Shown here: one piece after another, positions 35,728 to 62,387 of the stretch
Layout: each line of letters begins with the position of its first letter
How positions within the stretch are numbered: the stretch's first letter is position 1
Virus record (IMG/VR): IMGVR_UViG_3300031963_011573
Location: 1-64,000 of that record
Reading direction: 5' to 3' (one strand)
DNA from: a virus
DNA length: 64,000 nt
The notes under the pieces: generated by a model
Database searches by the model: none
The model's input: only the letters and a program-made list of their open reading frames with translations
What the model was told of the DNA's origin: nothing
Made by a program: the position numbers and the translations under genes

Positions 35728-36063
35728 ATGAAAACCGACGGATTAAAAAAAATAATTAAAGAAGCTGTACGAGAAGCAATTCAAGAAGAATTAAAAGATA
35801 TTTTACTTGAAGCTGTTCGTTCACCAAAACAAATAGTTAGAGAATCTATTCAACCTGTAGGAACCCCAAAATCATCATTTACTCAACCAACTGTGGATTT
35901 AAGACAAAAATATAAAGATGTACTAGGAGAAACAGCTTTAAGTTTCACCTCAAACGATATTCAACCAGCTTTTAGACCTCAATCAAGTGACCCAGTAAAT
36001 GGTAATTTAGGTACCGGTGAGCTAGGAATGGATCAGATTATGGGACTTTTAAATAGTAAATAA
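35728..36063 (+). CDS. Late protein with leader-type N-terminus, 111 aa
   Basis: N-terminal helix GLKKIIKEAVREAIQEELKD resembles the leader shared by other late proteins here, though longer. The rest is Pro/Gln/Ser-rich and probably extended, ending in a helix. Directly before gp25. Possibly a virion assembly or internal protein. Confidence 0.6.
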   Translation: MKTDGLKKIIKEAVREAIQEELKDILLEAVRSPKQIVRESIQPVGTPKSSFTQPTVDLRQKYKDVLGETALSFTSNDIQPAFRPQSSDPVNGNLGTGELGMDQIMGLLNSK

Positions 36064-36467
36064 TGGCGTTTAACCCACAACAAATATATCCTATTGATTT
36101 AGATAATAGCGCTGCTGTTGGGGTAAACTTACCTTTAAATGGTCCTGCTGTTTTTATATCAAATTTTCAAACAAAGGATGCTATAAAAAATAATTTAATA
36201 AATTTTTTCTTAACTAACCCTGGAGAAAGACCATTAAATCCAACATTCGGGGGTGGATTAAGAACATTTATTTTTGAACAAATTACTACAGACAATTTAA
36301 ATTTTCTTAGAGAAGACATAAATAGTAAACTTGCCATATATTTTCCCAATATAAATATAGAAGATCTTATAGTAGCAGGACAAGAAGATTTAAATCAAAT
36401 TACTGTAACTTTAAAATATTCAGTAATTAATACTAACATAACAGATACTTTAGAAATCCAACTTTAA
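36063..36467 (+). CDS. 25: Baseplate wedge protein gp25-like, 134 aa
   Basis: GPW/gp25 family signature: DAIKNNLINFFLTNPGERPL (about residues 39-58) followed by PTFGGGLRTFIFE (60-72) and a C-terminal strand set. Length matches T4 gp25 (132 aa). It links wedge and sheath and is part of the conserved contractile-tail core. Overlaps the preceding gene by one base and precedes gp6, the usual order. Confidence 0.93.
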   Translation: MAFNPQQIYPIDLDNSAAVGVNLPLNGPAVFISNFQTKDAIKNNLINFFLTNPGERPLNPTFGGGLRTFIFEQITTDNLNFLREDINSKLAIYFPNINIEDLIVAGQEDLNQITVTLKYSVINTNITDTLEIQL

Positions 36468-36468
36468 A

Positions 36469-38313
36469 ATGGCTAATACAAATAGAGATATAAAATATAT
36501 TAATCGTGATTTTTCTGATTTTAGACAACGATTAATAGAATATTCTAAAACATATTTTCCTAACACATATAACGATTTTTCCCCTGCATCACCTGGTATG
36601 ATGTTTATAGAACAATCAGCATATGTTGGAGATGTTTTAAGCTTCTATTTAGATAACCAATTACAAGAAACCTTTACTCAATATGCTCAACAAACAAATA
36701 ATATTTATGAATTAGCTTACATGTTTGGGTATAAACCAAAAGTTTCCACAGCAGCCCAAGTCACTTTAGATTTTTACCAACAATTACCAGCTAAAACAAT
36801 AAGTGGAGAAGTAGTACCTGATTTTGATTATGCTTTAACAATTGGGGAAAATACAACTATAACTTCCCAAACAGGTGCTTCTTTTATCATACAAGATAAA
36901 ATTGATTTTTCAGTTTCTAGTTCCCAAGACCCTACAGAAATTTCAGTCTACCAAATTTCAGGAAATACACCTCAATATTTTCTTTTAAAGAAAAGTAGAA
37001 ATACAATCTCTTCTACTATTAACACAACTTCATTTAATTTCACTGATCCTATTCCTTTCCAAACAATAAACATTACAGCGAATAATTTTATCAAAATTTT
37101 AGATATTATAGATTCTGATGGAAATATATGGTATGAAGTAGATAATTTAGGACAAGAAATGGTTTTAGATAGTATAAAAAATACTAATATAAATGATCCT
37201 AATGCAGGTACAGATGCTCCATATTTATTAAGACTTAAAAAAGCCCAACGTAGATTTGCTTCTCGTATATTATCAAATTCAACCATCCAACTCCAATTTG
37301 GAGCCGGCTCTCCAAATAATATTGATGAGGAAATAGTACCAAATGCTAATAATGTTGGAATTGGGTTACCTTTCATACAAGACAAACTAACAACAGCATA
37401 CTCCCCAGTAAATTTTTTATTTACTGGAACTTATGGTATATCCCCATCAAATACAACATTAAATGTTAGATATTTAACAGGTGGGGGAGTTTCATCTAAT
37501 GTAAATTCAAATACTTTAACAACAGTATCTCCAACTAATGTCAAATTTAATAATACTAATTTAAACCCAACAATTGCTAATTATATATTTAATTCATTAT
37601 CCTCAAATAACCCATTAGCTGCCTCAGGAGGTAAAGGAGGAGATACTTTAGAGGAAATCCGTCAAAATTCTTTAGCCCTTATAGCATCCCAAAAACGTTC
37701 AGTTACAGCAGATGATTATTTAATTAGAGCATTAAGTATGCCTTCACAATATGGGGCTGTATCTAAAGCATATATTGAACAACCAAAATTAACAGATAAT
37801 CAAGTTTCTACTATTGAAACTTTAAATTTATATATTTTAACCCAAAATTCTAGTGGTCAACTAGATTATGCTGGTGATGCTTTAAAAAATAATTTAAGAA
37901 CATATCTTTCCCAATATAGAATGATAGGGGATAATATTGAAATTAGGGATGCATTTATTATTAATATAGGTGTAAATTTTGAAATCACAGTATTACCAAA
38001 TTACAATAACAGTGAAGTTTTATTAGCTTGTATTTCTACTTTACAAAACTATTTTGATACAAATAAATGGCAATTAAACCAACCTATATTATTAAAAGAC
38101 TTATATATTTTACTAGACAAAACCCCAGGAATTCAAACAGTAAAAAATGTTTCTATAACAAATAAAGCAGGAACCTCCTCAGGATACTCCCAATATACCT
38201 ATGATATAGCAGGTGCAACTCAAAATCAAGTAATTTATCCTTCACTAGACCCTAGTATTTTTGAAGTAAGATACCCAAATTCTGATATAAAAGGTAAAGT
38301 AGTTCCTTTATAA
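36469..38313 (+). CDS. 6: Baseplate wedge protein gp6-like (baseplate J), 614 aa
   Basis: Starts with INRDFSDFRQRLIEYSKTYF and SPGMMFIEQSAYVGDVLSFY (about residues 42-61), the hallmark of gp6 in T4-like phages. A baseplate-J-type middle (GKGGDTLEEIRQNSLALIAS, then RSVTADDYLIRAL) and a C-terminal half follow. Length is close to T4 gp6 (660 aa). It forms the wedge ring around the hub. Confidence 0.92.
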   Translation: MANTNRDIKYINRDFSDFRQRLIEYSKTYFPNTYNDFSPASPGMMFIEQSAYVGDVLSFYLDNQLQETFTQYAQQTNNIYELAYMFGYKPKVSTAAQVTLDFYQQLPAKTISGEVVPDFDYALTIGENTTITSQTGASFIIQDKIDFSVSSSQDPTEISVYQISGNTPQYFLLKKSRNTISSTINTTSFNFTDPIPFQTINITANNFIKILDIIDSDGNIWYEVDNLGQEMVLDSIKNTNINDPNAGTDAPYLLRLKKAQRRFASRILSNSTIQLQFGAGSPNNIDEEIVPNANNVGIGLPFIQDKLTTAYSPVNFLFTGTYGISPSNTTLNVRYLTGGGVSSNVNSNTLTTVSPTNVKFNNTNLNPTIANYIFNSLSSNNPLAASGGKGGDTLEEIRQNSLALIASQKRSVTADDYLIRALSMPSQYGAVSKAYIEQPKLTDNQVSTIETLNLYILTQNSSGQLDYAGDALKNNLRTYLSQYRMIGDNIEIRDAFIINIGVNFEITVLPNYNNSEVLLACISTLQNYFDTNKWQLNQPILLKDLYILLDKTPGIQTVKNVSITNKAGTSSGYSQYTYDIAGATQNQVIYPSLDPSIFEVRYPNSDIKGKVVPL

Positions 38314-38317
38314 TTGC

Positions 38318-38325
38318 ATATTTAT
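38318..38325 (+). promoter_or_regulatory. Late-type promoter box ATATTTAT
   Basis: Starts 23 nt before the ATG at 38341. Confidence 0.55.
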
Positions 38326-38340
38326 AATAAAACATTATAA

Positions 38341-39459
38341 ATGGCTGTTTATAAAATTTTCCCCTTACAGGATACTACTTTATATTCTAATCATCCTGTA
38401 ATGAACACAGGACTAGATGCAATATGTGAAATATTTAATATTTTAGGTATTGATGGTAATCCTGGAGTAGCAAGATATTTAACCCAATTTGACCAGGAAG
38501 AAATCAATGATGTTATAGATAATAAAATTAATGGGGCTGAATATAGCGTATATTTAAGAAATTTTATTGCTACCGCTCAAGGAATAAATTCAACAACTGC
38601 TTTTGAAGTATACCCTATAGCTCAACAATGGAATAATGGAACAGGTCATTATTTAGATTCTCCCCAAATAACAGATGGAGCTTCTTGGAAATTTTCAAAC
38701 TATTCAGGATCAGGTTTTTGGAGTTTAAGTGGTTCATATAATGGATATTCTTATACAGGTTCATATGACCCTTTTAATTCTGAACCTGGTGGAGGAAATT
38801 GGTTTAATGACCCATCTTTTCAAATTACCCAATCATATTCATTACGTGAAGTAAAAGACTTTGATTTAAACACCAGTAATATTGTTGATGCTTGGTACTC
38901 TTCTTCTATTCCTAACTATGGGTTTATAATTAAATTATCAAGCTCATTTGAATTTTCTCCTAGTCAATATGTACAGCCTATCTTAAAATATTATAGTGTT
39001 GATACAAACACAATTTACCCTCCAACACTTGAATTTAGATGGAATGATTATACCTCATCAATAACTCCTTCTTCCCCAATTATAGATACAATTGATGTTA
39101 AAATGTCTTTAGATGGAAATACTGGTGTTTTTTATCCTGACAGTGTAAACAGATTTTATATTAATGTAAGTCCTTTATACCCTACTAGAGTATATCAAAC
39201 ATCGTCATTGTATACTAATTTAAATTATTTACCAACTTCTTCATATTACGCTATAAAGGATTTGGATACTAATGAATTTGTTATTAACTTTGACGAAACA
39301 TATACTAAAATAAGTTCTGATAGTAAAGGAAATTATTTTGATATTTACATGAGTGGCTTAGAACCTGAAAGATACTATAAAATTTTAATTAAAACTGTAA
39401 TTAATGGTTCTACTTTAGTATTTGATGACAATTACTATTTTAAAGTTATTAATGAATGA
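38341..39459 (+). CDS. Baseplate/tail structural protein with DNRLRE-like domain, 372 aa
   Basis: N-terminal YKIFPLQDTTLYSNHPVMN and FEVYPIAQQWNNGTG resemble DNRLRE/CBM-like beta-sandwich domains found in phage tail proteins. The second half contains a fibronectin-like part (PTLEFRWNDYTSS). Lies in the position after gp6 where other T4-type phages encode wedge proteins gp7/gp8. Overlaps the next gene by 4 nt. Confidence 0.68.
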   Translation: MAVYKIFPLQDTTLYSNHPVMNTGLDAICEIFNILGIDGNPGVARYLTQFDQEEINDVIDNKINGAEYSVYLRNFIATAQGINSTTAFEVYPIAQQWNNGTGHYLDSPQITDGASWKFSNYSGSGFWSLSGSYNGYSYTGSYDPFNSEPGGGNWFNDPSFQITQSYSLREVKDFDLNTSNIVDAWYSSSIPNYGFIIKLSSSFEFSPSQYVQPILKYYSVDTNTIYPPTLEFRWNDYTSSITPSSPIIDTIDVKMSLDGNTGVFYPDSVNRFYINVSPLYPTRVYQTSSLYTNLNYLPTSSYYAIKDLDTNEFVINFDETYTKISSDSKGNYFDIYMSGLEPERYYKILIKTVINGSTLVFDDNYYFKVINE

Positions 39460-39818
39460 ATGAAAATATAAAATTTCAAAAGCAGGTATTTAATAAGGGG
39501 GATTATTCTAAAATAATAGATACTTCTTTTAAACAACTTGGTGTTCAAACAATTCAACAACAAATTGAAGAACAACCAACTGTTGAAGATTTTTTTAATA
39601 TGTACAATGATTTATTTTACGATATACCTGAAACAGGAGAAATAAATTCACATGAATTTCTAATCAAAAAAAGTAGTGAATATATTAATTTTGACCCAAA
39701 CCAGGAAGAAATAGAAGCATTACAAGCTGAAATAGCTCAATTAAGAACAGATTTACTTGATTCACAAAAACAAGTAATAGAATTACAAACAGGAACAACA
39801 TTAGCTAACCCACAATAA
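39456..39818 (+). CDS. Virion-module protein with C-terminal coiled coil, 120 aa
   Basis: The C-terminal 40 residues form a heptad coiled coil (EEIEALQAEIAQLRTDLL). The N-terminal part contains EDFFNMYNDLFYDIP. Coupled to both neighbours by start/stop overlap. Probably an adaptor in the baseplate; no family recognised. Confidence 0.65.
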   Translation: MNENIKFQKQVFNKGDYSKIIDTSFKQLGVQTIQQQIEEQPTVEDFFNMYNDLFYDIPETGEINSHEFLIKKSSEYINFDPNQEEIEALQAEIAQLRTDLLDSQKQVIELQTGTTLANPQ

Positions 39819-42800
39819 TGGCAGCAGAAATTATTCAAATTGATACCCAAACCTTTACTTCACAAACATATGAAGGACAAGATACAAACTTGATCCCTAC
39901 ATTTGAAGTTCCTACTAATCTTTCAGAAAATAGTTATATTGAATATTTTACATATGACAATAATCAAAATATACTAACTTCTGACTACAATTTTACCCAA
40001 TATACAATTCAAAATGATGGTCAATCCGCTGGTAATGAAGGAAATATATCTCAAATAATAGTAGATCCTGAACAAGTTTTAGTAAATAATGGATTTGATC
40101 AAGGAGAATATATTACATATTTTAATTTTTTCAACAAACAAGTAGGTTCTAATCTAGAACAACTTTATATCTCAGAAATATCTTCTGATAGAACAGAAAT
40201 TCGTTTAGATAGTACTGTTCTTTCCAATCCTGATATTGTAGAGCAAACTACAAAATTCATTAGTGAACGAGAAAACAGTGAGTATTTTTTAGATTTTTAT
40301 TTAAACTTTGGTGACAACCAACTTATCATATCAAATAATGTTGTTTTAGATAATCAAGACCCAACTAATCCAACAGTATTAATTAAACTATATGAACCAT
40401 TACCTGAAGAATTTGATATAAATTCTACATTATGGGTAGTATCTCTTGTTGAAGAACCGAGAGCATATCAAGTTACTTTTGAGGAAGAACCTATTATTTT
40501 TGTAGATACCGTTAATATTAGTGGACCTAATTTTAATTTAGATATAAAAGATCAAGTAAATAATTCAACTTTAGAATTATCATATATTGATTTAATTACT
40601 ACATCTTTAACAAGTTCTCAAAACCAATTAAATAGTTTATTAGAGGAAAAAGAAATAGATATAAACGTAGACTATACAGATTTTTCTAATTTTGTACATT
40701 TTAGTTCAGCACAAACACGTTTAGAGAATTTTTACTATAAAACCCAATTAATAGAACAATACTCTTCATCTATTGCTGTATTAAATAATACTGTTAATTC
40801 CCCATTAAATGTTAGTAGTAGTGCTGCTGTATATGAAAGTAAAATAAGTGAAATCATAACCAATTTTGATGGTTATGAATATTTCTTATACTATGAAAAT
40901 AACCCATATACTTGGCCTAAAACTAATAATCAAAAACCATATACTTTAGAAAAATCAGATAGTACAATTGTTTTATCTTGGATTGGAAGCACAAATGAAT
41001 ATAGTCCATATTATGGAGGTTTAATTTTATCTGCCTCGTTATACGATAATAACAATAAAGATAACCTTTTATTTACAATCCCTGAATATCTAAGAGACGA
41101 TCCTGAAAACAACCAATATGAATTATTTGTTCAAATGGTTGCTCAACATTATGATAATATTTGGATATATTATAAAGAGGTAACCCAAAAATATAATGCT
41201 GATAACCGTTTAGAATACGGTATTTCAAAAGATATAGTAGCGGATGCTATTCGTGATTTTGGAGTTAAATTATACCAAAACAATTTTTCAAATGATGATT
41301 TATACACCGCATTCTTAGGTATCACACCAGAAGGTGGTTTATTCCCTTTCCCAAATATAACAGGATCTTTACCTACCCCTCCAGGATTTGAATACATAAA
41401 CACTTTAATTTCAGCATCAAACGATTATATGCCGTTAGATGATGTAAATAAATCGTTATATAAACGCATTTACCATAATTTACCATACCTGCTTAAATCA
41501 AAAGGTACTTTACCTGGTTTACGTGCTTTAATTACTTCATACGGTATTCCTGATACTATTTTAAGAATTAATGAATTTGGAGGGAAAGATAAAATAAACG
41601 TAAACGATTGGGATTCATGGCAAAATGAATTTAACTATGCATTTAATACTTCAGGAAGTAATTTTATATCTTCATCATGGGAGTTAAATCCTACTTGGAA
41701 TGCTCCAAATAATGTTCCTTCAACATTGATGTTTAGATTTAAAACAGATGGTCTTCCTTCAAACAATATTCTATACTCTCAAAGTTTATGGTATGGTGAT
41801 GGAGGAAGTGCTTTAGTATTAAAATACACAGGGTCAGCATATGTAAGTGAATCATATTCTGGTTCAATAATTGACCCGTATTACCAATATGCTAATGTAA
41901 TATTTTACCCTGATGTAAATAATTCTACCCAAACAGCAAGTGTTTATTTACCATTTTATAATGGTGGATGGTGGTCTGTAATGGTTACTAAAAATTCAAA
42001 TACTTATACATTACATTCACAAAATAAAATATATGAGGGAGGGGATAATGGAACTCTTTTAGGTTTTAAAGCATCTAGTTCTATAACATATGCTTCTAGT
42101 GCTTGGACTAATACTTCTACAAGTTATTTCCCTGTTAGTTTCTCTATTTCAGGTACCATAGGATATGATATATCAGCATATGATGTTGGAGTATATGATG
42201 AGGTAGGAAATTTAGCAGGATCATTTATACCATTTGTTGGAGCTTACCAAGAAATTAGATATTATACAGTCCCAATAAGTGAAAGTGTATTCATAGACTA
42301 TACAATGAACCCACATTCAGTTGAGGGAAATTCATTAAATAGCTCTCCAGATGAATTAGCTTTTAGAGCCTCAATTGGAGGAGAACAATACACAGCTTCA
42401 ATTTCTATACATCCTAAAGTAACTGGATCTTGGCAAACAACTCATTCATTTGCCTCTGATAGTAATTTTTACTATGATACTTCACCTAATTTTATACCAA
42501 ATGTTGAATATACTTTTGCTGATCAACCTATAGCAGGTATTAAAAATATTGTAAATGATAAAATTAGAGTAGAAAATAATGTATTACCTGAGGGAGATAC
42601 TTTATCTCAATATAGATCACTTTCTCAACAAGCTAATATATCCCAAAGTTATACCCCAAGTATTAACTATTTAGAGGTAGCATTTTCACCACAAAATGAA
42701 ATTAATGAAGATATAGTTGATCAACTTGGATATTTTAACATAGGAGAATTTATTGGAGACCCTAGATTAAGATCATCATCAGCTGAGTCATACCCTGCGT

Positions 42801-45769: not shown

Positions 45770-45771
45770 CA

Positions 45772-45779
45772 ATATTTAT
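45772..45779 (+). promoter_or_regulatory. Late-type promoter box ATATTTAT
   Basis: Starts directly after the giant gene. A second similar site (CATTTATATAA near 45790) lies closer to the ATG at 45810. Confidence 0.5.
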
Positions 45780-45809
45780 TAGTATAATACATTTATATAA
45801 TATAAAACA

Positions 45810-52209: not shown

Positions 52210-52635
52210 ATGGTAAAATTATCTCAACTACTAAAAGAAATATATGCTGAACCTAATAAATTTAATTATCCCCCATTAATTAAATCTCTTACAGAATATA
52301 TGTTGGGAAAAGGAATGAATATTCGTCCTTTACCTAAAGTAAAATTTGTTGATGATGATATTGAAAATTCCCAAAATTTCTTTGGAAAAACAGCATATTA
52401 TAACCCGAATGAAAAATCAATAGTTTTATACACTTATGGGCGTCACCCAAAAGATATAATGCGTTCGTTTGCTCATGAAATGATTCACCATGAACAAAAT
52501 TGTGAAGGGCGTTTAGGTAATACTCCTACTACTAATATCAATGAAGATGATTATCTATATGAATTAGAAAAAGAAGCTAATACATTAGGAACCATGATAT
52601 TTAGAGAATGGACAGACAAAATAACAAATAATTAA
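52210..52635 (+). CDS. HExxH zinc metallopeptidase with leader, 141 aa
   Basis: FAHEMIHHEQN gives H89-E90-x-x-H93, and a downstream YELEKEANTLG offers the third ligand Glu, so a gluzincin-type minimal protease. Residues 1-12 (MVKLSQLLKEIY) are the leader shared by several late proteins. This suggests that the protease may be packaged in the head and injected (inference). Alternatively a virion-maturation enzyme. Two bases before the next gene. Confidence 0.78.
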   Translation: MVKLSQLLKEIYAEPNKFNYPPLIKSLTEYMLGKGMNIRPLPKVKFVDDDIENSQNFFGKTAYYNPNEKSIVLYTYGRHPKDIMRSFAHEMIHHEQNCEGRLGNTPTTNINEDDYLYELEKEANTLGTMIFREWTDKITNN

Positions 52636-52636
52636 T

Positions 52637-53209
52637 ATGTCAGATAACGTTTTAAAAAAACAATTCCAAAAAAACGACGTAGAACGCCTACGTAACCTTA
52701 TTAAAGGTAAACACGGTGACCGAACCACAGTAGGAATTGGTTATAACGGAGAAATAATAGAAGACCATAAAGAAGGTGATATTTGGGAACAAGGAGGTAA
52801 AACTTGGACTATTCGAGATGGAATTAAAGAAAATATCACTAAACTAGATAAATTTAAAAAAGTAGCAGTTCCTTTATTTTGCCCTGATTGCAAACAAATT
52901 ATGGATAAACAATTAGATCCACATTATTTTAAATCATATGGTCATTGTCTAGATTGTAGAACAAAATTTGAAACTCAACTTAAACTAGAAGGCAAATGGG
53001 AGGAATACACTAATTCTACATTCAATGCCGAAATAGATAAACAAATAGAAGAATATAAAGGTTATTTTGAATCACTCCTTTCAGAAGGAAACCAAGACTA
53101 TGTTTCCGAAAATGGTGAAATTCAAAAATGGGTTGGTGGAATAGATAAAGAGCGTGCTCAAAACGCTTTAGATGAGATGGTTAAACACTTAAATTCTTTA
53201 AAAAAATAA
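52637..53209 (+). CDS. Zinc-ribbon protein, 190 aa
   Basis: Middle part has CPDC (about residues 79-82) and CLDC (about 101-104), a four-cysteine zinc ribbon, preceded by a conserved segment (WEQGGKTWTIRDGIKENITK) and followed by a helical tail with GIDKERAQNALDEM. I recall it as a widespread protein of T4-type marine phages, with unknown role. Confidence 0.75.
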   Translation: MSDNVLKKQFQKNDVERLRNLIKGKHGDRTTVGIGYNGEIIEDHKEGDIWEQGGKTWTIRDGIKENITKLDKFKKVAVPLFCPDCKQIMDKQLDPHYFKSYGHCLDCRTKFETQLKLEGKWEEYTNSTFNAEIDKQIEEYKGYFESLLSEGNQDYVSENGEIQKWVGGIDKERAQNALDEMVKHLNSLKK

Positions 53210-53832
53210 TGGAAACTTTTACAATGATAACAACTGTCTTAGTAGCACTAATTACAGCTGTTGTAGGACCTATAATTGTTAATTGGTTTAAAATTAAAAT
53301 GGAAAAAAAAGATACCTCTACTCCAATGAGAGATGCTCTTGAAACCTCTACTTTAATTGACACCCAATTAGAACAAATAATGGATGAATTAGAAAGTGAT
53401 CGTATTTGGATAGCCCAATTCCATAATGGAGGCTATTTTTACCCTACAGGCAGATCAATCCAAAAATTCTCCATATTTTATGAAAAATGTACCCCAGAAA
53501 CACCTACCATCCAGAATACATTCCAAAACATTCCTGTATCTTTATTTCCTAGAGTATTATCCAAAATATACAAAGATAATGAATTATCAATTGAGGATGT
53601 AGATATAGAAGAAGATACATATGGTTTAGAATATATAACAACACAATTTGGTACTAAATCAATTTGTATGGTTGGTTTACATAGTTTAGATAATCATTTA
53701 ATAGGTGTATTAGCTATTTCCTTTCAAAACCCACACCATATTACAAAAGATGAATGGATTTATATAAGACAAAAAGTAGGAGTTGTAGGAACACTACTTT
53801 CCGAATATTTATACACGACAACAAAAAAATAA
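53209..53832 (+). CDS. Membrane-anchored GAF-like protein, 207 aa
   Basis: One N-terminal membrane helix (about residues 6-26: LVALITAVVGPIIVNW), a linker helix, then a GAF-like sensor domain (DRIWIAQFHNGGYFYPTGRS; SICMVGLHSLDNHLIGVLAI). I recall similar phage proteins with the AQFHNG motif. It could sense a small molecule or hold a phage complex at the membrane; evidence is by resemblance only. Confidence 0.7.
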   Translation: METFTMITTVLVALITAVVGPIIVNWFKIKMEKKDTSTPMRDALETSTLIDTQLEQIMDELESDRIWIAQFHNGGYFYPTGRSIQKFSIFYEKCTPETPTIQNTFQNIPVSLFPRVLSKIYKDNELSIEDVDIEEDTYGLEYITTQFGTKSICMVGLHSLDNHLIGVLAISFQNPHHITKDEWIYIRQKVGVVGTLLSEYLYTTTKK

Positions 53833-53834
53833 AA

Positions 53835-54374
53835 ATGGACAATTTTGACTTAAAAAAATTCTTAAAAGAAAGTAAAGCTCTAGAGAATTTAAACCCTATA
53901 CTAAAAAAAGAAAACCTTAGTGAAGGTAACATGCGTGGTAAAATCCGCGAAATGATTTTAGCTGAATTGGGAAACCCAGATGACTATGATTATGATCCAA
54001 ATGATGATTACGGGGATGATGAATCTAGTTATTTTCCTCATATGCAAGGTTTAGAAGATGAACCTGAAAGTGAATTAGAGGAAGCTAAAAAGAAAAAAGA
54101 CGAAGAAGTAGAAGATGTTGAAACAACTGATACTGAAACAACTGATACAACTGAAGAAATGCCTGCTGAGGAAGCGCCTGCTGAAGATGCACCTGCTGAT
54201 GGAGGTGGTTTAGAAGATGTAGCTGCAAACATGGAAGGTACTGAAGGTGAATTAATGGACCATTTAATGAGTGCATTTAAAATTGCTAAAGGTATGAACA
54301 ATGAAAAACTTGAAACACAAGTTGGAAACACACTTAAATTTTTCGTTAGCGAATATATTGGTGGAGGAGAATAG
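53835..54374 (+). CDS. Acidic leader-bearing late protein, 179 aa
   Basis: Starts MDNFDLKKFLKESKAL, nearly the same leader as the 61413 product (MDNFDLRKYLAEGKLYE). Then an acidic Pro/Ala/Glu/Thr-rich middle (TTDTETTDTTEEMPAEEAPA) and a helical end. An in-frame ATG at 53754 lies in the previous gene. Composition resembles head-core or internal proteins of T4-type phages. Confidence 0.72.
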   Translation: MDNFDLKKFLKESKALENLNPILKKENLSEGNMRGKIREMILAELGNPDDYDYDPNDDYGDDESSYFPHMQGLEDEPESELEEAKKKKDEEVEDVETTDTETTDTTEEMPAEEAPAEDAPADGGGLEDVAANMEGTEGELMDHLMSAFKIAKGMNNEKLETQVGNTLKFFVSEYIGGGE

Positions 54375-54405
54375 TAATTAATTAAATCTATATAAAATAA
54401 AATCT

Positions 54406-54579
54406 ATGAACACAACAGAAATTTTAGAAGCAATCAAAGTTGCTGTAGCTGATTTAGAGGCAAACCATGCTAAATCTTCAAAAGCAGCTCGTGGTAGAGC
54501 ACGTAGTGCAGCTAACACAATTAAAAAACTAGCAGCTGAATTTAAAAAGACTTCAACTGCAGAAGACAAAGAAGCATAA
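54406..54579 (+). CDS. Histone H1-like (Hc1-type) protein, 57 aa
   Basis: Reads MNTTEILEAIKVAVADLEAN and then KSSKAARGRARSAANTIKKL with EFKKTS: this matches the Hc1-like histone family of chlamydiae and Bacteroidota (A-x-R-A-R-K/S-A...I-x-K-L-x-K-E-F-R/K-K). Small, Lys/Ala-rich and DNA-binding. Placed among internal-head-type proteins, it may compact phage DNA or be delivered with it; it might also be of host origin. Confidence 0.75.
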   Translation: MNTTEILEAIKVAVADLEANHAKSSKAARGRARSAANTIKKLAAEFKKTSTAEDKEA

Positions 54580-54580
54580 A

Positions 54581-55462
54581 ATGCAAAAAAAAAGAACCGA
54601 AAATTCAATTGAAAAATCCAACGGAACTTCCGTTGGATCTTTTGGTTCTTTAACTGAAGGATTTATCCCAACACCTGAACAATCAAAGGAAATAGTAGAT
54701 AAATTCAAATCCATTATCAACACTCGTTTAGATAAACTATATGATACTAGAGGAGCAGATGGAGAATTATACGCTTATGGCATTGCTGTTAATCAAGTAA
54801 AGAAAAAAGCAGAATCGGGTGCTGAAACACCTGAAGAAACACCAACAGAAGAACCAATGGATAAAGAAACTAAATTAAAAGAAATGATTCAAGCGGCTTT
54901 ATCTAAGCCTTTAAATGAAAAGAAAAAATCTTTCCCTGATTTGACAGGTGATGGTAAAGTAACTCAAGCTGATATTTTAAAAGCACGAGGGGTTGAATTA
55001 GAGGAAGACCTTGATTTAGGTCACCAAGATGATGAACCACACATGCTTAAATCTGATTTATATGATATTGGGAAATATGCTATAGAACTTTATAAAATAG
55101 TTGATCAATTTGAAGGTGAACAAGAAGTTGATTTCCCACACTGGTGGCAAGCAAAAATTGTTAAAGCCAAAGAACTTATATCTTCAGCAAAACATTATCT
55201 TGAATTTGAGATAAAAGAACCTCAAATCGATGCTATGGTAGATGTAGTTTCTGAAGAAGATGTAATTGATGAAAAATTAAAACCTTCTATGGGTGCAGGA
55301 GCATATGTTAAAGATTTTGAAAAATCTGAAGCACCTCAATTTAAAGGTAAATCTGAAAAGAAAAAACAAAAAATGGCGGTAGCTGCTTATCTGTCTGCTA
55401 AAGATAAAACTAAGAAAAAAATAAAAGAAGCTATTTTAGCTAAATTTAAAAATAAACAATGA
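54581..55462 (+). CDS. Internal-head-type protein, 293 aa
   Basis: Several modules common in T4-type marine phages: KKKSFPDLTGDGKVTQADIL (about residues 108-127), a helical HMLKSDLYDIGKYAIELYK and DFPHWWQAKIVKAKELI block (about 150-200), and a very basic C-terminus (KSEKKKQKMAVAAYLSAKDK). LTEGF near residue 26 could be a processing site. Role probably in head core or DNA packaging; inferred from context. Confidence 0.7.
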   Translation: MQKKRTENSIEKSNGTSVGSFGSLTEGFIPTPEQSKEIVDKFKSIINTRLDKLYDTRGADGELYAYGIAVNQVKKKAESGAETPEETPTEEPMDKETKLKEMIQAALSKPLNEKKKSFPDLTGDGKVTQADILKARGVELEEDLDLGHQDDEPHMLKSDLYDIGKYAIELYKIVDQFEGEQEVDFPHWWQAKIVKAKELISSAKHYLEFEIKEPQIDAMVDVVSEEDVIDEKLKPSMGAGAYVKDFEKSEAPQFKGKSEKKKQKMAVAAYLSAKDKTKKKIKEAILAKFKNKQ

Positions 55463-55923
55463 CCCGCAACCAACTAAAAGATAGAATTAGAAACCTAGTA
55501 AAACAATCATATTCCCAACAAACTATTACCCCAGAGGAAGCTGTTCAATATGATGAGTTAACTAAATTTCCTGAACTGAAAAAAGTTATAGTTGATTTAT
55601 TGACAAACGAATATGATAATTTTTTGGAATCTATTGATTGGGTTGCTCCACGTCCTACTACATTTAGAATTAACTTAAAAAACGGACAAGAATTTTATCT
55701 AATTTATGGTAAACGCAGTTGGATTGCCCAAATAGAAGGCAAAAAATATTATCTAAAAAACCTCCCAGAAGAACAACGTGCGGCAGAATCTATAGCTCAA
55801 ATTTTGAGATATGGAACCCCTGAGAAAAAATCTGAAGAAGAATTTGAACCAGAAGCTGGAGCAGAAACTCCACCTGCTGAAGAAACACCACCAGCTGAAG
55901 AAACACCACCAACAGAAGCATAA
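55459..55923 (+). CDS. Leader-bearing late protein, 154 aa
   Basis: Starts MTRNQLKDRIRNLVKQSYSQ, a basic form of the shared leader. The middle (FRINLKNGQEFYLIYGKRSW) is beta-rich, and the tail is an acidic Pro/Glu/Thr repeat (PPAEETPPAEETPP). Overlaps the preceding and following genes. Likely virion-associated. Confidence 0.66.
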   Translation: MTRNQLKDRIRNLVKQSYSQQTITPEEAVQYDELTKFPELKKVIVDLLTNEYDNFLESIDWVAPRPTTFRINLKNGQEFYLIYGKRSWIAQIEGKKYYLKNLPEEQRAAESIAQILRYGTPEKKSEEEFEPEAGAETPPAEETPPAEETPPTEA

Positions 55924-56810
55924 TGGATATTTTAGAAAAATTTTTAAATAGTATAGCTTACAAGTTTCCTAAAGGATATCCTGATATGAAGGATCCTAAC
56001 GATGTTGAATTGCTTCATAAGTTATTAAATGAAGTAATTGATTTAGAAGAATTAAAAACCAAACCTCATTGGGATGAACGAATTAAGGAAAGAGGTACTA
56101 TATTAGATATAATTAGTTTTCCTAAAGATTATCCTTTATCTAAACAAGAAGTTATTAAACAAATTGAAGATGAACTTAATAGGAGAGCTATCAATTTAGA
56201 AAAACTTAAAGAAGTTCCATTATCTCTTCCATATAAAATAGGATACAAATTATTCAAACCACTACTTAATTATAACGGGAAAAATATATCTCTTGATTTA
56301 AAAGTTGAATATACTGTTAAAGGTATTAAAAAAATAGGAATAGGGAACTCATTTGTGGCTGTAATAAATAATGATACATTAATTACTTTACTATTATTAC
56401 CAAGTGATGATAATCCTACTATAGAATTATCTTTAGAAAAGCACGAAGAAAGAGAATATGGAAAACCTAAACCAATAAAAATAATTTCTTCAAGTAATTA
56501 TGAATTTATCATTACTCCTAAACCAGAAAGCTCTCAATTAATTAAAATTACAGATCTACCATATAAAGTAAAAACTTCATATCGTCCTGGAACAACTTTT
56601 ACTCATGACAAATATGGAACTGGAACTATTATAGCAGCAGCCTCCGCTGGGACTAGATCAGGTGAGCCTGATAGTAGAGGAATAGTCGATTGGGTTGAAG
56701 TAGATTTTGGTAAACCATATGTTTTAGGCGGGCAATTTAAAAAAACAAGAACTATAAAAGACGTATATACTTCAATTTCTCCTGACTTAGACTCCCCAGC
56801 AGCTGAATAA
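55923..56810 (+). CDS. Hypothetical late protein, 295 aa
   Basis: N-terminal helices with HWDERIKERGTILDIISFPK, beta-rich middle and C-terminal YRPGTTFTHDKYGTGTIIAA, a small barrel-like motif seen in phage and bacterial proteins. Ends SPAAE. No enzyme motif seen. Confidence 0.62.
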   Translation: MDILEKFLNSIAYKFPKGYPDMKDPNDVELLHKLLNEVIDLEELKTKPHWDERIKERGTILDIISFPKDYPLSKQEVIKQIEDELNRRAINLEKLKEVPLSLPYKIGYKLFKPLLNYNGKNISLDLKVEYTVKGIKKIGIGNSFVAVINNDTLITLLLLPSDDNPTIELSLEKHEEREYGKPKPIKIISSSNYEFIITPKPESSQLIKITDLPYKVKTSYRPGTTFTHDKYGTGTIIAAASAGTRSGEPDSRGIVDWVEVDFGKPYVLGGQFKKTRTIKDVYTSISPDLDSPAAE

Positions 56811-56843
56811 GTATTTGGTTTTATAAAAAACTTTTCTTATATT
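56811..56843 (+). promoter_or_regulatory. Host-like promoter, TTTG class
   Basis: GTATTTG box, exact usual distance, TTATATTTAA; drives the phosphoesterase gene. Confidence 0.6.
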
Positions 56844-56866
56844 TAAATCAAACTTCAAAATAAATT

Positions 56867-57964
56867 ATGGAAGAAAACTCAAAAGTTATATCATCAGAAA
56901 TTACTAATCGTGTAATTACAGTAGAAGATCTTTTAAATATATATAATGTATCTTTAGATAAATGGGAAATTGAAAAACAAATCCTCAACACATGGGAAGT
57001 TGGTGCGAAAGGACCAGATAATAAAATTGTTACTACTCCTTTATTTCAAGTAAAAGTTTGGTTAAAAAATAAACAAACTGAAATATTAAAAAATATTCGA
57101 GAAGAATTTATTGAAGATATTAAAAAATTATCTCCTAAAGTTGAAAAAATAAACTATAAACAAAAAGTAGATAAATACCCATTATTATTAGAAATTAATA
57201 TATTTGATTTACATTTAGGTAAAATAGCATGGTCTGAAGAAACTAACCATGATTATAATTTAGAAATAGCAAGTACTATATTTAACCAATGTATAAATGA
57301 ATTTATTGAAGAAACATCTAATAAAAATATAGACCGTATAGTTTTCCCTGTAGGAAATGATTTTTTTAACTCAGACAGATCTCATCCTTTTAATAGTACA
57401 ACTAAAGGCACACCACAAGAAGAAGACGCTAGATGGCAAAAAACATTTAGGTTAGGACGTCAATTATTAGTAGAAGCTATAAATAAACTTCAATATATTG
57501 CCCCTGTAGATGTGATTATGATTCCTGGTAATCATGATTTTGAAAGGAATTTTTATTTAGGTGATTCATTAGAAAGTTGGTTTTACAACAATGAAAATGT
57601 AACTGTAGATAATTCTGCAAATCCTAGAAAATATTATAAATACGGTGAAGTATTAATTGGTTATACGCATGGTAATGAAGAGAAAATAACTGATTTACCT
57701 TTAATTATGGCTAATGAAAAACCAACAGATTGGGCATTATCAACTTATAGAGAATTCCATTTAGGTCACTTACACCATAAAAAAGAAATTAAATTCAAAT
57801 CCACAGAAGAATACCAAGGAGTAATCATTAGATATTTCAATTCATTATCAGGTTCCGACTCATGGCATCATAAAAAAGGATACGTTGGAGCTAAACGTTC
57901 TGCTGAAGCATTACTCTGGGATAAAACTAAAGGTTTAAAAAATAATATCTATTTTACTTTATGA
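56867..57964 (+). CDS. Calcineurin-like metallophosphoesterase, 365 aa
   Basis: Motifs: INIFDLHLGK (about residues 106-115), VGNDFFNSD (about 161-169), IPGNHDFERN (about 221-230), YTHGNEEK and LGHLHHKKE (about 300-308). The first Asp-x-His is D-L-H as in other phage proteins of this group. An N-terminal 95-residue helical domain precedes it. Probably a DNA or nucleotide phosphoesterase of the SbcD-like superfamily, but no SbcC partner is nearby. Overlaps the next gene (ATGA). Confidence 0.85.
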   Translation: MEENSKVISSEITNRVITVEDLLNIYNVSLDKWEIEKQILNTWEVGAKGPDNKIVTTPLFQVKVWLKNKQTEILKNIREEFIEDIKKLSPKVEKINYKQKVDKYPLLLEINIFDLHLGKIAWSEETNHDYNLEIASTIFNQCINEFIEETSNKNIDRIVFPVGNDFFNSDRSHPFNSTTKGTPQEEDARWQKTFRLGRQLLVEAINKLQYIAPVDVIMIPGNHDFERNFYLGDSLESWFYNNENVTVDNSANPRKYYKYGEVLIGYTHGNEEKITDLPLIMANEKPTDWALSTYREFHLGHLHHKKEIKFKSTEEYQGVIIRYFNSLSGSDSWHHKKGYVGAKRSAEALLWDKTKGLKNNIYFTL

Positions 57965-58473
57965 AACCAGCAGATTTAGTTACACCTGAATTAATTCAAT
58001 ATTGTATTCAATTTAACACAATAGTGGTTTTAGGTTACACTAAAACAGGTAAACTTCCAATAGCTAAAAAAATTGCCCAAGAATTAGATCGTCCTTTATT
58101 TATTTCTGATGAGTATTTAGAATTAAAAGATCCATTAGATGCTTTTATGAGTGATGTTACTTGGCATCAAAGAAGAGGAAATCAAATAGTAATTGAAGGT
58201 ACTTTATGTTTTAGATTATTAAGAAAAGGTTTAGAATTATCTAATTTTAATACTGATTTAATTATCAAAACTAAATGTAATGATGAAACAATAAAACATT
58301 TTTATAGAATAGATGGTGAGGAATCTAAAATTAAACGAGCTCTCTCATTTAATCAAGGTTTAAATAAAATATGGGATGAATATAGAGGAATATTACAAAC
58401 TAAAACATATAATGAAATCCCTAAATTTATAGAATTAGAAACCACACTCCCTGAATATTCGTATTTCTCATAA
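57961..58473 (+). CDS. P-loop kinase-like protein, degenerate, 170 aa
   Basis: VVLGYTKTGKLPIAKKIAQE (residues 22-41) is in the position of a Walker A motif, but the usual Ser/Thr after GK is Leu. Later GNQIVIEGTLCFRLL resembles the Walker B/lid region of small kinases. May be an inactive or atypical nucleotide/polynucleotide kinase, co-translated with the phosphoesterase. Confidence 0.65.
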   Translation: MKPADLVTPELIQYCIQFNTIVVLGYTKTGKLPIAKKIAQELDRPLFISDEYLELKDPLDAFMSDVTWHQRRGNQIVIEGTLCFRLLRKGLELSNFNTDLIIKTKCNDETIKHFYRIDGEESKIKRALSFNQGLNKIWDEYRGILQTKTYNEIPKFIELETTLPEYSYFS

Positions 58474-58480
58474 TATTTAT
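58473..58480 (+). promoter_or_regulatory. Late-type promoter box ATATTTAT
   Basis: Starts 17 nt before the ATG at 58490, overlapping the upstream stop. Confidence 0.6.
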
Positions 58481-58489
58481 TAACATATT

Positions 58490-58948
58490 ATGATTAAATT
58501 AATTAATTTACTCAAAGAAATTACTGGGTTCTCAAATTGGAAAATACCTTCCTCGTCTCAACTTAAACAAGAGTTTAAGATAGAACAAGAAATGAAGGGT
58601 AATGAATTTTGGGAAGATGAAGAAGCTTTTTTAAATGCTGTTAAAAACGGTAAAATTGTAACTGTTACTCCTTCTGAAGATCAAGATATAGATTATAGAA
58701 GCGGAACCGAATCATATGAAGAACTTTTAGGTCTTATTAAATCATATCGATCATATCCTGAATTTAGAAATGAAAAAACATTGCAATCTATTTATGATGG
58801 ATTTAAAAATAATTCTCCTATGGATTTACCGATAATTATAGAAGACGATAACGGGTATAGAAGAATTTTTTCTGGGAATACAAGAATGGATATAGCTTTT
58901 CAATTAGGTATAAACCCGAAAGTATTACTCATTAAAGGAGATTTATGA
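58490..58948 (+). CDS. ParB/sulfiredoxin-fold-like protein with leader, 152 aa
   Basis: Starts MIKLINLLKEITGF (shared leader). Residues about 115-150 (MDLPIIIEDDNGYRRIFSGN and TRMDIAFQLGINPKVLLI) resemble the ParB/Srx core, with GNTR in place of the usual G-x-H-R motif. Such domains act as nucleases, CTPases or kinases; activity here is unknown. With the leader it is a candidate injected protein. Overlaps the next gene (ATGA). Confidence 0.68.
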   Translation: MIKLINLLKEITGFSNWKIPSSSQLKQEFKIEQEMKGNEFWEDEEAFLNAVKNGKIVTVTPSEDQDIDYRSGTESYEELLGLIKSYRSYPEFRNEKTLQSIYDGFKNNSPMDLPIIIEDDNGYRRIFSGNTRMDIAFQLGINPKVLLIKGDL

Positions 58949-59514
58949 TTAGATTAGTAGATTTATTAAAAGAAATAAACGAGGCCAAACAAGTAGGAGA
59001 CATCTATCATTTTACTGATACTGATACTATAACCTCTATGATCAAAGATTATGGAGGCATAACCTTAGACCCTTCATTCTCTAGCTTTGCAGCAGATAAG
59101 TACTATTCCTTTACCAGAAACCCCAACTTAGGCACTCTTTCAGAAGAAAAACACCACGTTAGAATAAAACTTAATGGAGATAAAATGTCCAATAAATATA
59201 AATTTGAGCCATATGCTGATTTAGAAAGTGGTGAAGATTTATACTCTAAAAACGCTCCTAATTATGAATCTGAAGAACGAATTAATTCTAAAAAATATGG
59301 AGAAATAAATTTAACTCCATATATTGAAGAAATAACTATCATTAGTCCTGATAGTTTTAAAGAATATCTTGAAAGTTATCATTCTGGTACTAAATATTAT
59401 GATGAAATATTAAATGATTATAATTTTGTTTTAGATTGGATTAAATCTAAAAATATACCTCTTAAATTCTCCCAAGCTAGATCCACATCCTCCATTAGGA
59501 GAGCAGCTGAATAA
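58945..59514 (+). CDS. ADP-ribosyltransferase-like protein with leader, 189 aa
   Basis: Starts MIRLVDLLKEINEA (shared leader). Then GDIYHFTDTDTITSMI (H22), a YYSFTRNPNLG strand (Y54-S55) and ESEERINSK (E108-E111) are spaced like the H-Y/S-E catalytic set of ART-fold proteins. T4 packages an ADP-ribosyltransferase (Alt) that modifies host RNA polymerase on injection. By analogy this could be an injected host-modifying enzyme. Fold assignment comes from motif spacing, so it needs confirmation. Confidence 0.6.
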   Translation: MIRLVDLLKEINEAKQVGDIYHFTDTDTITSMIKDYGGITLDPSFSSFAADKYYSFTRNPNLGTLSEEKHHVRIKLNGDKMSNKYKFEPYADLESGEDLYSKNAPNYESEERINSKKYGEINLTPYIEEITIISPDSFKEYLESYHSGTKYYDEILNDYNFVLDWIKSKNIPLKFSQARSTSSIRRAAE

Positions 59515-59521
59515 TATTTAT
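59514..59521 (+). promoter_or_regulatory. Late-type promoter box ATATTTAT
   Basis: Starts 12 nt before the ATG at 59526; transcripts would be almost leaderless. Confidence 0.55.
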
Positions 59522-59525
59522 TAAT

Positions 59526-60635
59526 ATGGAACGTTTACGACAACTTATAAAAGAAGTACTTTCAACTCCACCTAAAAAAGATAGCTGTAATTGTGGTTGT
59601 CATGATTGTGATAATGTAGGTAATACTGGTGTAGTATTAAATGAAAGTTTAGTTAAAAAAGATATATTGTCGGAAAATCTGCGTTATCACGTGGATAATA
59701 AACTACCACTAACTGAAAACACATTCCGTTATGGTTCTCAAGCATTCCTTGATTTATGGTCGGAAGCTCGTTATTTATATTTACGTGAAATAATTCATGT
59801 AAATGATGATGATAAAGAAATTTTACTTGAAACTAATTTAGGTGAATATGGAATGTATGAAGGTAACAAAGTACCTTTAGATTTACCTATGTTAGAGGAA
59901 AACCAATACCAACCTATCTTAGAAGATATTAAGATGTATGGTAAAATATACGAGGCTGTAAATATAGAAAATTCCTACAAACTAGATGATATTAAATCAA
60001 ACGAAGTAGGAAATGAATTTATTTTTACAGATAAACATGGTATTAAACGTAAATTGATGTTTTTAAGAGGAAATAGCGTTAAATTGTTATGGTTTAACCC
60101 CACCACTCAAGAATGGACAACAGACGATATTCCTAGTAAATATGAAGATGAAAAAGTAATGAATACTTTTGGTATGTTATTAGTTAAAGTAATATTACCA
60201 AAATATGGTTCATTTAATTTTCAAGCTTTAAATGCCGCTCGTTACCGTTTATTTAGAGCATTAATCTATAATAATTTAGACACTTCAAAATATGAAATGG
60301 ATTATGACGATGAAAACAAATCAATTGAAGTTCATCAAATAGATACATTAACAGAAGAAGATAAAAAGAAAACTCCACCAATTGGAAAACCAAAACGTGG
60401 TGGATCTAAAAAATTCTACGTTTATGTTAGAAATAAAGGTAAAGTTAAAAAAGTATCTTTTGGACAAGTAGGAATGTCTGCTAAAATAAATGACCCTAAA
60501 GCACGCAGAGCATTTGCTGCACGTCACGATTGTAAAAATAAAACAGATAGAACTAAACCTTCATATTGGAGTTGTAGGCTTCCAAGGTACGCATCTTTAT
60601 TAGGTCTAAAAAGTTCTTTTAGCGGTTTCTGGTAA
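59526..60635 (+). CDS. Leader-bearing late protein with C-terminal basic domain, 369 aa
   Basis: Residues 1-14 (MERLRQLIKEVLST) are the shared leader, followed by a Cys cluster (CNCGCHDC, about 20-28) that could bind metal. The C-terminal 80 residues (KFYVYVRNKGKVKKVSFGQV, ARRAFAARHDCKNKTDRTKP, YWSCRLPR) form a domain I recall from many T4-type phage internal proteins. Abundant acidic middle. Likely packaged or head-associated. Confidence 0.72.
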   Translation: MERLRQLIKEVLSTPPKKDSCNCGCHDCDNVGNTGVVLNESLVKKDILSENLRYHVDNKLPLTENTFRYGSQAFLDLWSEARYLYLREIIHVNDDDKEILLETNLGEYGMYEGNKVPLDLPMLEENQYQPILEDIKMYGKIYEAVNIENSYKLDDIKSNEVGNEFIFTDKHGIKRKLMFLRGNSVKLLWFNPTTQEWTTDDIPSKYEDEKVMNTFGMLLVKVILPKYGSFNFQALNAARYRLFRALIYNNLDTSKYEMDYDDENKSIEVHQIDTLTEEDKKKTPPIGKPKRGGSKKFYVYVRNKGKVKKVSFGQVGMSAKINDPKARRAFAARHDCKNKTDRTKPSYWSCRLPRYASLLGLKSSFSGFW

Positions 60636-60650
60636 TAAAAAATTAAATTT

Positions 60651-60809
60651 ATGAAAAAATCTGAATTAAAACAACTTATCAAAGAAGAAATTATCCAACA
60701 AAAACTTTTAGAGGAAAAAAATAAAAAAGCCTCTAAAATTAACCAGAATCTTTCAAATTTGATAGAAAAAATGAAAAAAGACTTCAATATAGAAGATGAG
60801 CGATTTTGA
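60651..60809 (+). CDS. Leader-type peptide, 52 aa
   Basis: Reads MKKSELKQLIKEEIIQQKLL and continues as one charged helix: essentially the shared leader plus a short tail. Overlaps the next gene by 14 nt. Confidence 0.6.
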   Translation: MKKSELKQLIKEEIIQQKLLEEKNKKASKINQNLSNLIEKMKKDFNIEDERF

Positions 60810-61410
60810 TAAAATAAAACCTTTACAAAATAAAATAGATACTCTTTTACTAGATATAAAAGATGTAAAACCTAATCTATATGAAGACTATTCAAACATA
60901 GTTGATTATTCTATAAATGGTTTTATTGATTTGGGAGCTGAATATATTAAAAACAACCCACAAGAATTTGAAATTTTTCTAAAAAAATTAAATGACATTA
61001 TTAAAATATTAATATTTATTAAAACTAAAGAAAACATTCAAGAGGAAAAAGAAAAACGCGATAGGTGTTTACGTATTGCAGATCGCAAATACGATAAACC
61101 ATCCGCTTACAAATCTGGTGCTGTTGTTAAGTGTCGTAAAGGTATGATTTGGAAAGGTTTAAAAGAAGAAGTAATTCTTGAAAAAGTAAAAGAAACCCTC
61201 CGCACTTGGTTTTCCCGTAAAGGAACACCTGGTAAAAAAGGTGGATGGGTTGATTGTAATGCACCTATTAAAAAAGATGGCAAAATAACAGGATATAAAT
61301 CATGCGGTAGAGAAGAAGGAGAAAAACGCTCAAAATACCCTTCATGTCGTCCTACACCTTCACAATGTAAAACACCTGGTAAAGGTACTAAATGGGGTAA
61401 AACAAAATAG
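60796..61410 (+). CDS. DUF5872-like Cys-rich protein, 204 aa
   Basis: C-terminal domain LRTWFSRKGTPGKKGGWVDC, GYKSCGREEGEKRSKYPSCR and PTPSQCKTPGKGTKWGK: four or five cysteines in a basic context, as in the DUF5872 family of marine phages. A second motif DRCLRIADRKYDKPSAYKSG (about residues 89-108) is also typical. Function unknown; basic and probably DNA-contacting. Confidence 0.78.
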   Translation: MSDFDKIKPLQNKIDTLLLDIKDVKPNLYEDYSNIVDYSINGFIDLGAEYIKNNPQEFEIFLKKLNDIIKILIFIKTKENIQEEKEKRDRCLRIADRKYDKPSAYKSGAVVKCRKGMIWKGLKEEVILEKVKETLRTWFSRKGTPGKKGGWVDCNAPIKKDGKITGYKSCGREEGEKRSKYPSCRPTPSQCKTPGKGTKWGKTK

Positions 61411-61412
61411 AT

Positions 61413-61853
61413 ATGGATAACTTTGATTTAAGAAAATATTTAGCTGAAGGTAAATTATATGAAGCAGCTATGGCTTGTCCTTTACCTACCCAAGATTTAG
61501 AACTTAACACCAAAAATAGAGACTCAGCTATTAAAGCAGATTATATTAAATATGGTCCTTTAAATGTTGATGAACCTGGAGATTATTGGGACGAATTAGC
61601 AGAACATTGGGATACAACAGTTGAAGCTGCTAAACAATCTTTATGTGCAAATTGTGCAGCATTTGATATTTCCCCAAGAATGGAAGATTGTATGCCTGGA
61701 CCATTACAAGATGAAGATGGAAAATTAGGATATTGTTGGATGCATAGTTTTAAGTGCCATTCAGCTCGTACTTGTAGGACATGGGCTAAAGGTGGTCCTA
61801 TTACACAAGATAGTATATCTTATGATTGGCAAGAGCGTAAAGAAAGTGAGTAA
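61413..61853 (+). CDS. Cys-rich metal-binding-like protein with leader, 146 aa
   Basis: Starts MDNFDLRKYLAEGKLYEAAM, close to the leader of the 53835 product and resembling T4 capsid-targeting peptides with an L-x-E cleavage motif. The C-terminal half has SLCANCAAFDISPRMEDCMP and GYCWMHSFKCHSARTCRTWA, seven cysteines that could hold an Fe-S cluster or zinc. I recall this Cys domain from cyanophages. Candidate packaged protein. Confidence 0.74.
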   Translation: MDNFDLRKYLAEGKLYEAAMACPLPTQDLELNTKNRDSAIKADYIKYGPLNVDEPGDYWDELAEHWDTTVEAAKQSLCANCAAFDISPRMEDCMPGPLQDEDGKLGYCWMHSFKCHSARTCRTWAKGGPITQDSISYDWQERKESE

Positions 61854-62109
61854 ACCATACATTGACATAGAAGTTACAGACAAATATATTATTCGTGAGT
61901 TTAACGAAAATATAGATCCAATTGAATTAAAATGGCATAGGGATTTAGAGAGTCGTACTGTTGAAATTTTAGAAGATACAGATTGGAAACTTCAATTAGA
62001 TAATAGCTTGCCTACCTCACTAAAAGAACATATATTTATACCTGCATTAGAATGGCATCGTGTAATAAAAGGAACAGGAACATTAAAGTTAAAAATACAT
62101 AAATTATGA
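61846..62109 (+). CDS. Conserved phage protein, 87 aa (GTG start)
   Basis: The likely start is GTG at 61846, overlapping the previous stop; an in-frame ATG at 61792 would overlap 60 bases of the previous gene. Pattern YIIREFNENIDPIELKWHRD, RTVEILEDTDWKLQLD and FIPALEWHRVIKGTG: I recall this as a cupin-like small family in myoviruses. Ligand unknown. Confidence 0.68.
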   Translation: MSKPYIDIEVTDKYIIREFNENIDPIELKWHRDLESRTVEILEDTDWKLQLDNSLPTSLKEHIFIPALEWHRVIKGTGTLKLKIHKL

Positions 62110-62387
62110 AAAAAACTGATTTAAAAAATACAATCAAAGAGGAAATTAAAAAAGTATTAATGGAGGAAACGAGTAGAACATCTATACCTCTTATCCGTGG
62201 AGCTCTTAATCAAATAGAAGAGAATGGTAAAATAGAAACTATGAATGCTATGCTTAGAAATCTTACAGATGAAGAAGCTAGACAATTCAATTTACTTGTT
62301 CAAAAAGGAATAGGAAAAGAAATTAAAAGGATCCCAACTAATTCCCCAGCAGCTGATCCTCGTTTAACCCCAGGAACAACAGATTAA
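62106..62387 (+). CDS. Leader-bearing late protein, 93 aa
   Basis: Starts MKKTDLKNTIKEEIKKVLME (shared leader), then a helical segment with LTDEEARQFNLLVQKG and a Pro-rich tail. ATGA overlap with the previous gene. Candidate internal or assembly protein. Confidence 0.62.
   Translation: MKKTDLKNTIKEEIKKVLMEETSRTSIPLIRGALNQIEENGKIETMNAMLRNLTDEEARQFNLLVQKGIGKEIKRIPTNSPAADPRLTPGTTD

Follow-up and report, generated by a model that had tools for sequence, protein, structure and literature searches.

Exchangeable N-terminal leaders on late proteins of a T4-type phage and its relatives: candidate capsid-targeting sequences in several classes

Introduction

In phage T4, a handful of injected proteins are known. 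The internal proteins IPI, IPII and IPIII and the protein Alt are cargo that bears a capsid-targeting sequence (CTS) and is injected with the DNA; IPI inhibits a host restriction system, IPIII acts in the host cytoplasm and is required for infection of a particular strain, and IPII is among those without a known role (PMC9026906, PMC9391042). Genetic work on IPIII assigned targeting to residues 4 and 7 and processing to residues 8 and 10, the protease gp21 cuts after L/I-x-E, and IPIII co-purifies with gp22 (PMC9026906). The ejection proteins of phiKZ and SPN3US likewise have a propeptide with repeated sites that is cut after Glu by a gp21-like protease, although the motif there is A/S-x-E and several SPN3US propeptides are longer than 100 residues (PMC5694885, PMC9026906). 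We sought literature on CTSs from Bacteroidetes or marine phages and found none. Here we analyze short N-terminal leaders that are shared by late proteins of the virus record IMGVR_UViG_3300031963_011573. The window under study comprises the first 64,000 nucleotides of this record of 106,060 bases.

The record is that of a T4-type phage of a Flavobacterium-phage lineage, and the closest cultured relative found is Flavobacterium phage vB_FspM_immuto (Immutovirus), referred to below as immuto. T4-type head genes lie downstream: the terminase (67277), a portal (Portal_T4, PF07230) and a major capsid protein (Gp23, PF07068). A prohead protease homologous to gp21 is encoded at 74043-74675 of the record (PF03420 Peptidase_S77, E = 1.6e-26), and a homologue of this S77 protease was detected in five of five relatives. 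The scaffold protein (gp22) was assigned by position and composition.

Results

A preliminary description of the window had proposed that at least ten late proteins start with one shared peptide and that this peptide targets them to the capsid. We scanned the first 30 residues of each open reading frame (ORF) for the strict motif [LI]..[LIFY][LIV][KRA]E and found it in 8 of the 170 ORFs of the record. Internal windows of the same proteins gave a mean of 1.0 matches (maximum 3 in 300 draws), and shuffled N-termini a mean of 0.6 (maximum 4 in 200 shuffles), which bears out that a shared leader is real. None of the eight matches lies in the early half of the record, and seven fall within the 18 kb that precede the terminase gene (hypergeometric P = 1.2e-5). 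When leaders were compared across related phages, the same excess recurred in five relatives, namely immuto (7/231 ORFs), G001 (9/251), G005 (13/244), G006 (7/107) and G007 (10/165). Four siphovirus-type phages gave no match to the strict motif.

A census of leader positions over 7 genomes and 166 related loci (5,240 distinct ORFs in 1,454 body clusters) gave the general rule hydrophobic-x-x-hydrophobic-[LIV]-x-E, with Glu at residue 10 or 12. Weighted by cluster, Glu peaks at residue 10 (22.0 clusters), residue 12 (34.2) and residue 20 (17.7), other positions typically holding 2-5 clusters; clusters were formed by single linkage, and a few matches per peak are expected by chance. Leader logos show no conservation beyond the leader. 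In the family of the protein starting at 65728, residues 1-12 hold 3.83 bits compared to 1.86 bits for residues 23-40, making the leader by far the most conserved part. Identical leader residues are encoded by differing codons from gene to gene, so the shared element is the peptide, and it is the peptide that is under selection.

At least four leader classes are found on many unrelated bodies. The bodies do have nothing else in common, as first described, but the single shared peptide of that description gives way to several. Type 1, M-K-K-S-[DE]-L-[KR]-[QK]-[LI]-[IV]-K-E-E-[IL]...L-x-E (in short MKKSELKxLIKEEI..LxE), occurs in 47 clusters, and type 2, M-I-K-L-x-[DQ]-[LI]-[LI]-K-E (in short MIKLxDLLKE), in 33. 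Type 3 is MDNFDLKKFLxE, with a mean of 3.73 bits at positions 1-12 in 60 sequences. Type 4 is RMQxLAG[IVL] followed by [ILV]-x-E, as in RMQxLAGIITE.

The T4 CTSs (IPI, IPII, IPIII and Alt) resemble these leaders in having a 10-residue N-terminal start with hydrophobic residues at 4 and 7, [LI] at 8 and Glu at 10, ending in L/I-x-E. This IPIII register is exact in type 2; types 1 and 3 are shifted from it by two residues, and type 4 by about seven or more. In contrast to T4, the leaders described here fall into several classes, occupy far more body families, use a residue-12 register as well and are known from sequence alone. Applied to T4 as a positive control, the same scan returned ipII and ipIII (both named from their sequences), gp24 (MAKINELLRE) and gene 61.1 at Glu10, a count of four ORFs compared to 0.47 per position. 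With a slash marking the cut (a predicted one in the leaders below), the gp24 propeptide MAKINELLRE/S is nearly identical to type 2 in both register and residues, although gp24 is a vertex shell protein, unlike the bearers of the cargo leaders here. Gene 61.1 (L286:67-231), a hypothetical protein of 54 residues, starts MKTFKEFIKED in the CTS register of the internal proteins, and may be an unrecognized packaged T4 protein.

The type-4 motif (RMQKLAGI) recurs at the very C-terminal end of the scaffold protein. At C-termini, RMQxLAG[IVL] occurs 64 times, with the protein ending at most two residues further on and no Glu following. At N-termini it is found in 21 proteins of 20 clusters, and [ILV]-x-E is added in 20 of the 21. 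Judged from these sequences, the type-4 leader is the C-terminus of gp22 moved to cargo N-termini, with a putative cleavage site added. In one protein (G001_+138666), a type-2 leader opens the sequence and RMKKLAGL closes it. No prior report of a scaffold-tail leader was found; what is new here is the scale of leader use, the existence of several leader classes and the scaffold-tail class.

Leaders are exchangeable, since three body families carry leaders of differing types, each ending at an [LIV]-x-E site. The Cys-rich body of the protein at 61413 has the type-3 leader MDNFDLRKYLAE/G in some phages and the type-2 leader MIKLTDILSE/A in others, and a kinase-like body is found behind either type 1 or type 2. 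The ART-like body of the protein at 58945 is preceded by MIKLIDILKEITE/G, MKKSELKQIIKEEIRKVLNE/S or MIKLLDILNE/S in different phages, and also occurs within fusions ending LKE/A or LDE/S. Whether type 1, type 2 or a fusion stands upstream of it, the junction is always [IL]-x-E/[AGS], and Glu13 is invariant in 11 aligned ART-like sequences with several N-terminal architectures. Small residues follow [LI]-x-E (position P1') in 38 of 86 leader clusters, compared to 28 of 140 controls pooled from two stretches of non-leader proteins (P = 1.5e-4). The capsid protein of this phage family has a conserved L-V-x-E directly before a variable glycine-rich stretch, plausibly a protease site with Val at P3.

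Two bodies were followed into phages lacking a detectable S77 protease. The phrog_7595 domain, which forms the C-terminus of the protein at 59526, has the leader MKKFKQYIDE/G in the S77-encoding phage C48C1 and is leaderless in Kolga, CRP-902, CRP-2 and CRP-6; the S77 query had no match in these four phages, while the same search detects the protease of T4. In Kolga and Aegir, a head morphogenesis gene follows the domain at a distance of two or three genes. The HiPIP-like body of 61413 lacks a leader in six phages, for which a second S77 search, one without a positive control of its own, gave no match. Given their head-gene neighbours and fusions and the leaderless state without S77, both bodies look head-associated on sequence grounds, and the leader appears to go with the T4-type system. 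Two of these arrangements are as follows. In Roseobacter phage CRP-6 (L089:1168-1857) the phrog_7595 domain is fused N-terminally to an apparent prohead protease, a fusion that would link the domain to head maturation, and in Actinomycetia phage DSL-LC01 (L279) the gene for a HiPIP-like relative of 61413 is followed directly by that of a capsid maturation protease.

The N-terminal module is common to nine to ten late proteins, and all N-termini named at the outset were confirmed at ORF starts; all are on the plus strand. Type-2 leaders are MVKLSQLLKE (52210..52239) on a zincin-like metallopeptidase (52210-52635), MIKLINLLKE (58490..58519) on a ParB-like protein (58490-58948) whose label derives solely from a GNTRMDIAF motif and has no family match behind it, MIRLVDLLKEINE (58945..58983) on the ART-like protein (58945-59514), with a predicted cut INE/A, and MERLRQLIKE (59526..59555) on the phrog_7595 protein (59526-60635). 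Type 3 is represented by MDNFDLKKFLKE (53835..53870) on an acidic protein (53835-54374), which starts at an internal ATG of ORF 53754-54374 directly after the stop of the preceding gene, and by MDNFDLRKYLAE/G (61413..61448) on the Cys-rich HiPIP-like protein (61413-61853). The type-1 leader MKKSELKQLIKE (60651..60686) stands on an ORF of 52 residues (60651-60809) that overlaps the start of a DUF5872 gene (60796-61410); in relatives, leader and DUF5872 body are fused directly in a single frame.

Three of the ten proposed members did not stand in full. The type-1 leader MKKTDLKNTIKEEIKKVLME (62106..62165), on a small protein (62106-62387), fits in part, with Thr9 at a hydrophobic position; like further leaders of type 1, it has a second site at E20. 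The protein at 55459 (55459..55923, MTRNQLKDRIRNLV) drops out, having no conserved Glu12. The third, 35728, has a type-1-like start, MKTDGLKKIIKE (35728..35763), that is conserved in relatives, but lies in the baseplate block directly before gp25; despite its sequence fit it is a doubtful member, perhaps a helical protein with a structural role. One clear leader had been missed, MKKTRLLEIIREEISSALRE at 65728, just outside the window.

Immuto has the same leader types in the same late block together with an S77 protease, and differs in that some bodies are fused into large proteins. In its counterpart of 55459 the leader is intact but internal, at the point where two bodies are joined: a protein of 841 residues (L084:24006-26531) fuses relatives of 54581 and 55459 with a leader-like stretch between them, as if it were a polyprotein destined for cleavage in the head. 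No virion proteomics of immuto was found in the literature.

Searches of Pfam, PHROG and NCBIfam named few of the bodies in the window. The protein at 58945 had no match in Pfam or among cultured phage records. In its AlphaFold2 model the leader is a detached helix, and the best Foldseek match in the PDB is a tRNA 2'-phosphotransferase of the ART-superfamily fold (E = 1e-3, probability 0.97, TM 0.29/0.42), a modest similarity. For the kinase-like cargo A2 of relatives, kinases acting on proteins or small molecules make up nearly all of the top 50 PDB matches listed (E = 5e-3 to 3e-2), and K37, D175 and D193 are invariant. Relatives also encode a leader protein of the Zeta_toxin family (E = 3e-12). 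The metallopeptidase of 52210, alone with its own leader here, stands behind an NMNAT (adenylyltransferase) domain in relatives. Such fusions of NMN-adenylyltransferase-like domains to a zincin-like metallopeptidase occur at L084:17131-19854 and G001:36173, and several of them start with the leader-like MNSLVKxLIQPLLEA, a hint at packaged NAD-salvage enzymes. The repertoire of leader proteins varies between close relatives.

A separate feature of the late genes is TATTTATA, present at most 45 nt ahead of 16 of 77 late genes (32900-64000 and beyond) and of none of 76 early genes. It is likely a late promoter element close to start codons. Only 3 of 10 leader genes have it at this distance, and linkage to late promoters thus does not separate the leader genes from others.

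Discussion

We consider it probable that the leaders are T4-type capsid-targeting sequences that are read by the prohead core and the prohead protease. The capsid-targeting role first proposed has gained support from the S77 protease, the T4-type portal and capsid proteins, the T4 register, the swapping of leaders, and the leaderless homologues in phages without S77. According to this model, an amphipathic helix of 10-20 residues would dock the protein behind it to the prohead core as the core grows. After completion of the shell, the S77 protease would cut after [LIV]-x-E, freeing the body and clearing the leader, and the freed body would stay in the head with the DNA to be delivered at infection. 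The module is exchangeable, as the four leader classes on many unrelated bodies show.

Several observations weigh against this interpretation. The terminase (67277) and the RecB-like nuclease of relatives begin with leader look-alikes, as does the gp25 neighbour 35728, so a single leader match is no proof. Some matches are structural or due to chance, and the claim rests on the leader class as a whole, its positions and its swapping. Many leaders hold two candidate cut sites, P1' is often Ile or Glu instead of a small residue, and Val at P3 of the presumed capsid site suggests that the specificity of the protease may be broader than that of T4. Nor are protease and leader strictly linked, since the phrog_7595 protein of S77-encoding HTVC008M lacks a clean leader, and the excess of Glu at residues 10 and 12 is nil in S77-encoding S-PM2 and almost nil in HTVC008M. 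Finally, we infer the presence of the leader proteins in heads from their sequences.

Among other explanations, the one that survives best holds that the leader proteins are building blocks of the prohead core, like T4 gp67 and gp68, which shape the head and are then degraded or kept, rather than injected as effectors. Indeed, 65728 and the products of the genes preceding gp21 resemble core proteins in that their bodies are acidic or of low complexity, and the co-purification of IPIII with gp22 (PMC9026906) would agree with such a role. However, several bodies resemble folded enzymes (ART-like, kinase-like, zeta-toxin-like, metallopeptidase), and a repertoire that differs between close relatives suits accessory cargo better than an essential scaffold. 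We regard this explanation as unlikely, though a serious competitor.

It is less likely still that the shared start is an uncut amphipathic helix docking onto a partner outside the prohead, such as a tail part, a host protein or a membrane. Hydrophobic residues spaced i, i+3, i+4 do yield an amphipathic helix, the leader of 58945 is modeled as a detached one, 35728 has baseplate genes for neighbours, and the terminase begins in a similar way. Yet a partner other than a protease would leave three things unexplained: the [LIV]-x-E at the end of every leader class, the gain of this site by the scaffold tail in its N-terminal copies only, and the invariance of the E/[AGS] junction across leader swaps.

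It is very improbable that the similarity merely reflects composition, in an AT-rich phage with helical N-termini rich in Lys, Leu and Glu, or a coding-level element for translation start: K/L/E-rich starts do occur in early genes too, and Shine-Dalgarno sites are absent upstream of genes, but shuffled N-termini and internal windows fall short of the count and rule out composition as the cause, matches are confined to the late half, Glu peaks specifically at 10 and 12, synonymous codons differ between leaders, which also rules out a copied DNA-level element, and a single body can have different leader sequences.

We give about an even chance to a wider claim. Head entry in these phages would be governed by a modular cargo code, in which any of several interchangeable tags suffices, one of them the scaffold tail RMQKLAGI with a protease site attached, so that cargo would dock through scaffold mimicry. 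Dozens of accessory bodies per clade would then be injected, including kinase-like, ART-like and zeta-toxin-like proteins and NAD-salvage enzymes. Because T4 IPI inhibits restriction and IPIII enables infection of a strain, a role of this cargo in anti-defence or host takeover is a natural guess by analogy.

Relatives carry such tags on dozens of further proteins, and the probable injected set is thus largely readable from sequence. The scaffold-tail tag, if it is what it appears to be, would reveal which part of the scaffold recruits cargo. If the rule holds true, sequence alone would suffice to list what a large group of environmental phages injects, and the resulting catalogue would offer candidates for first-strike proteins of anti-defence and takeover.

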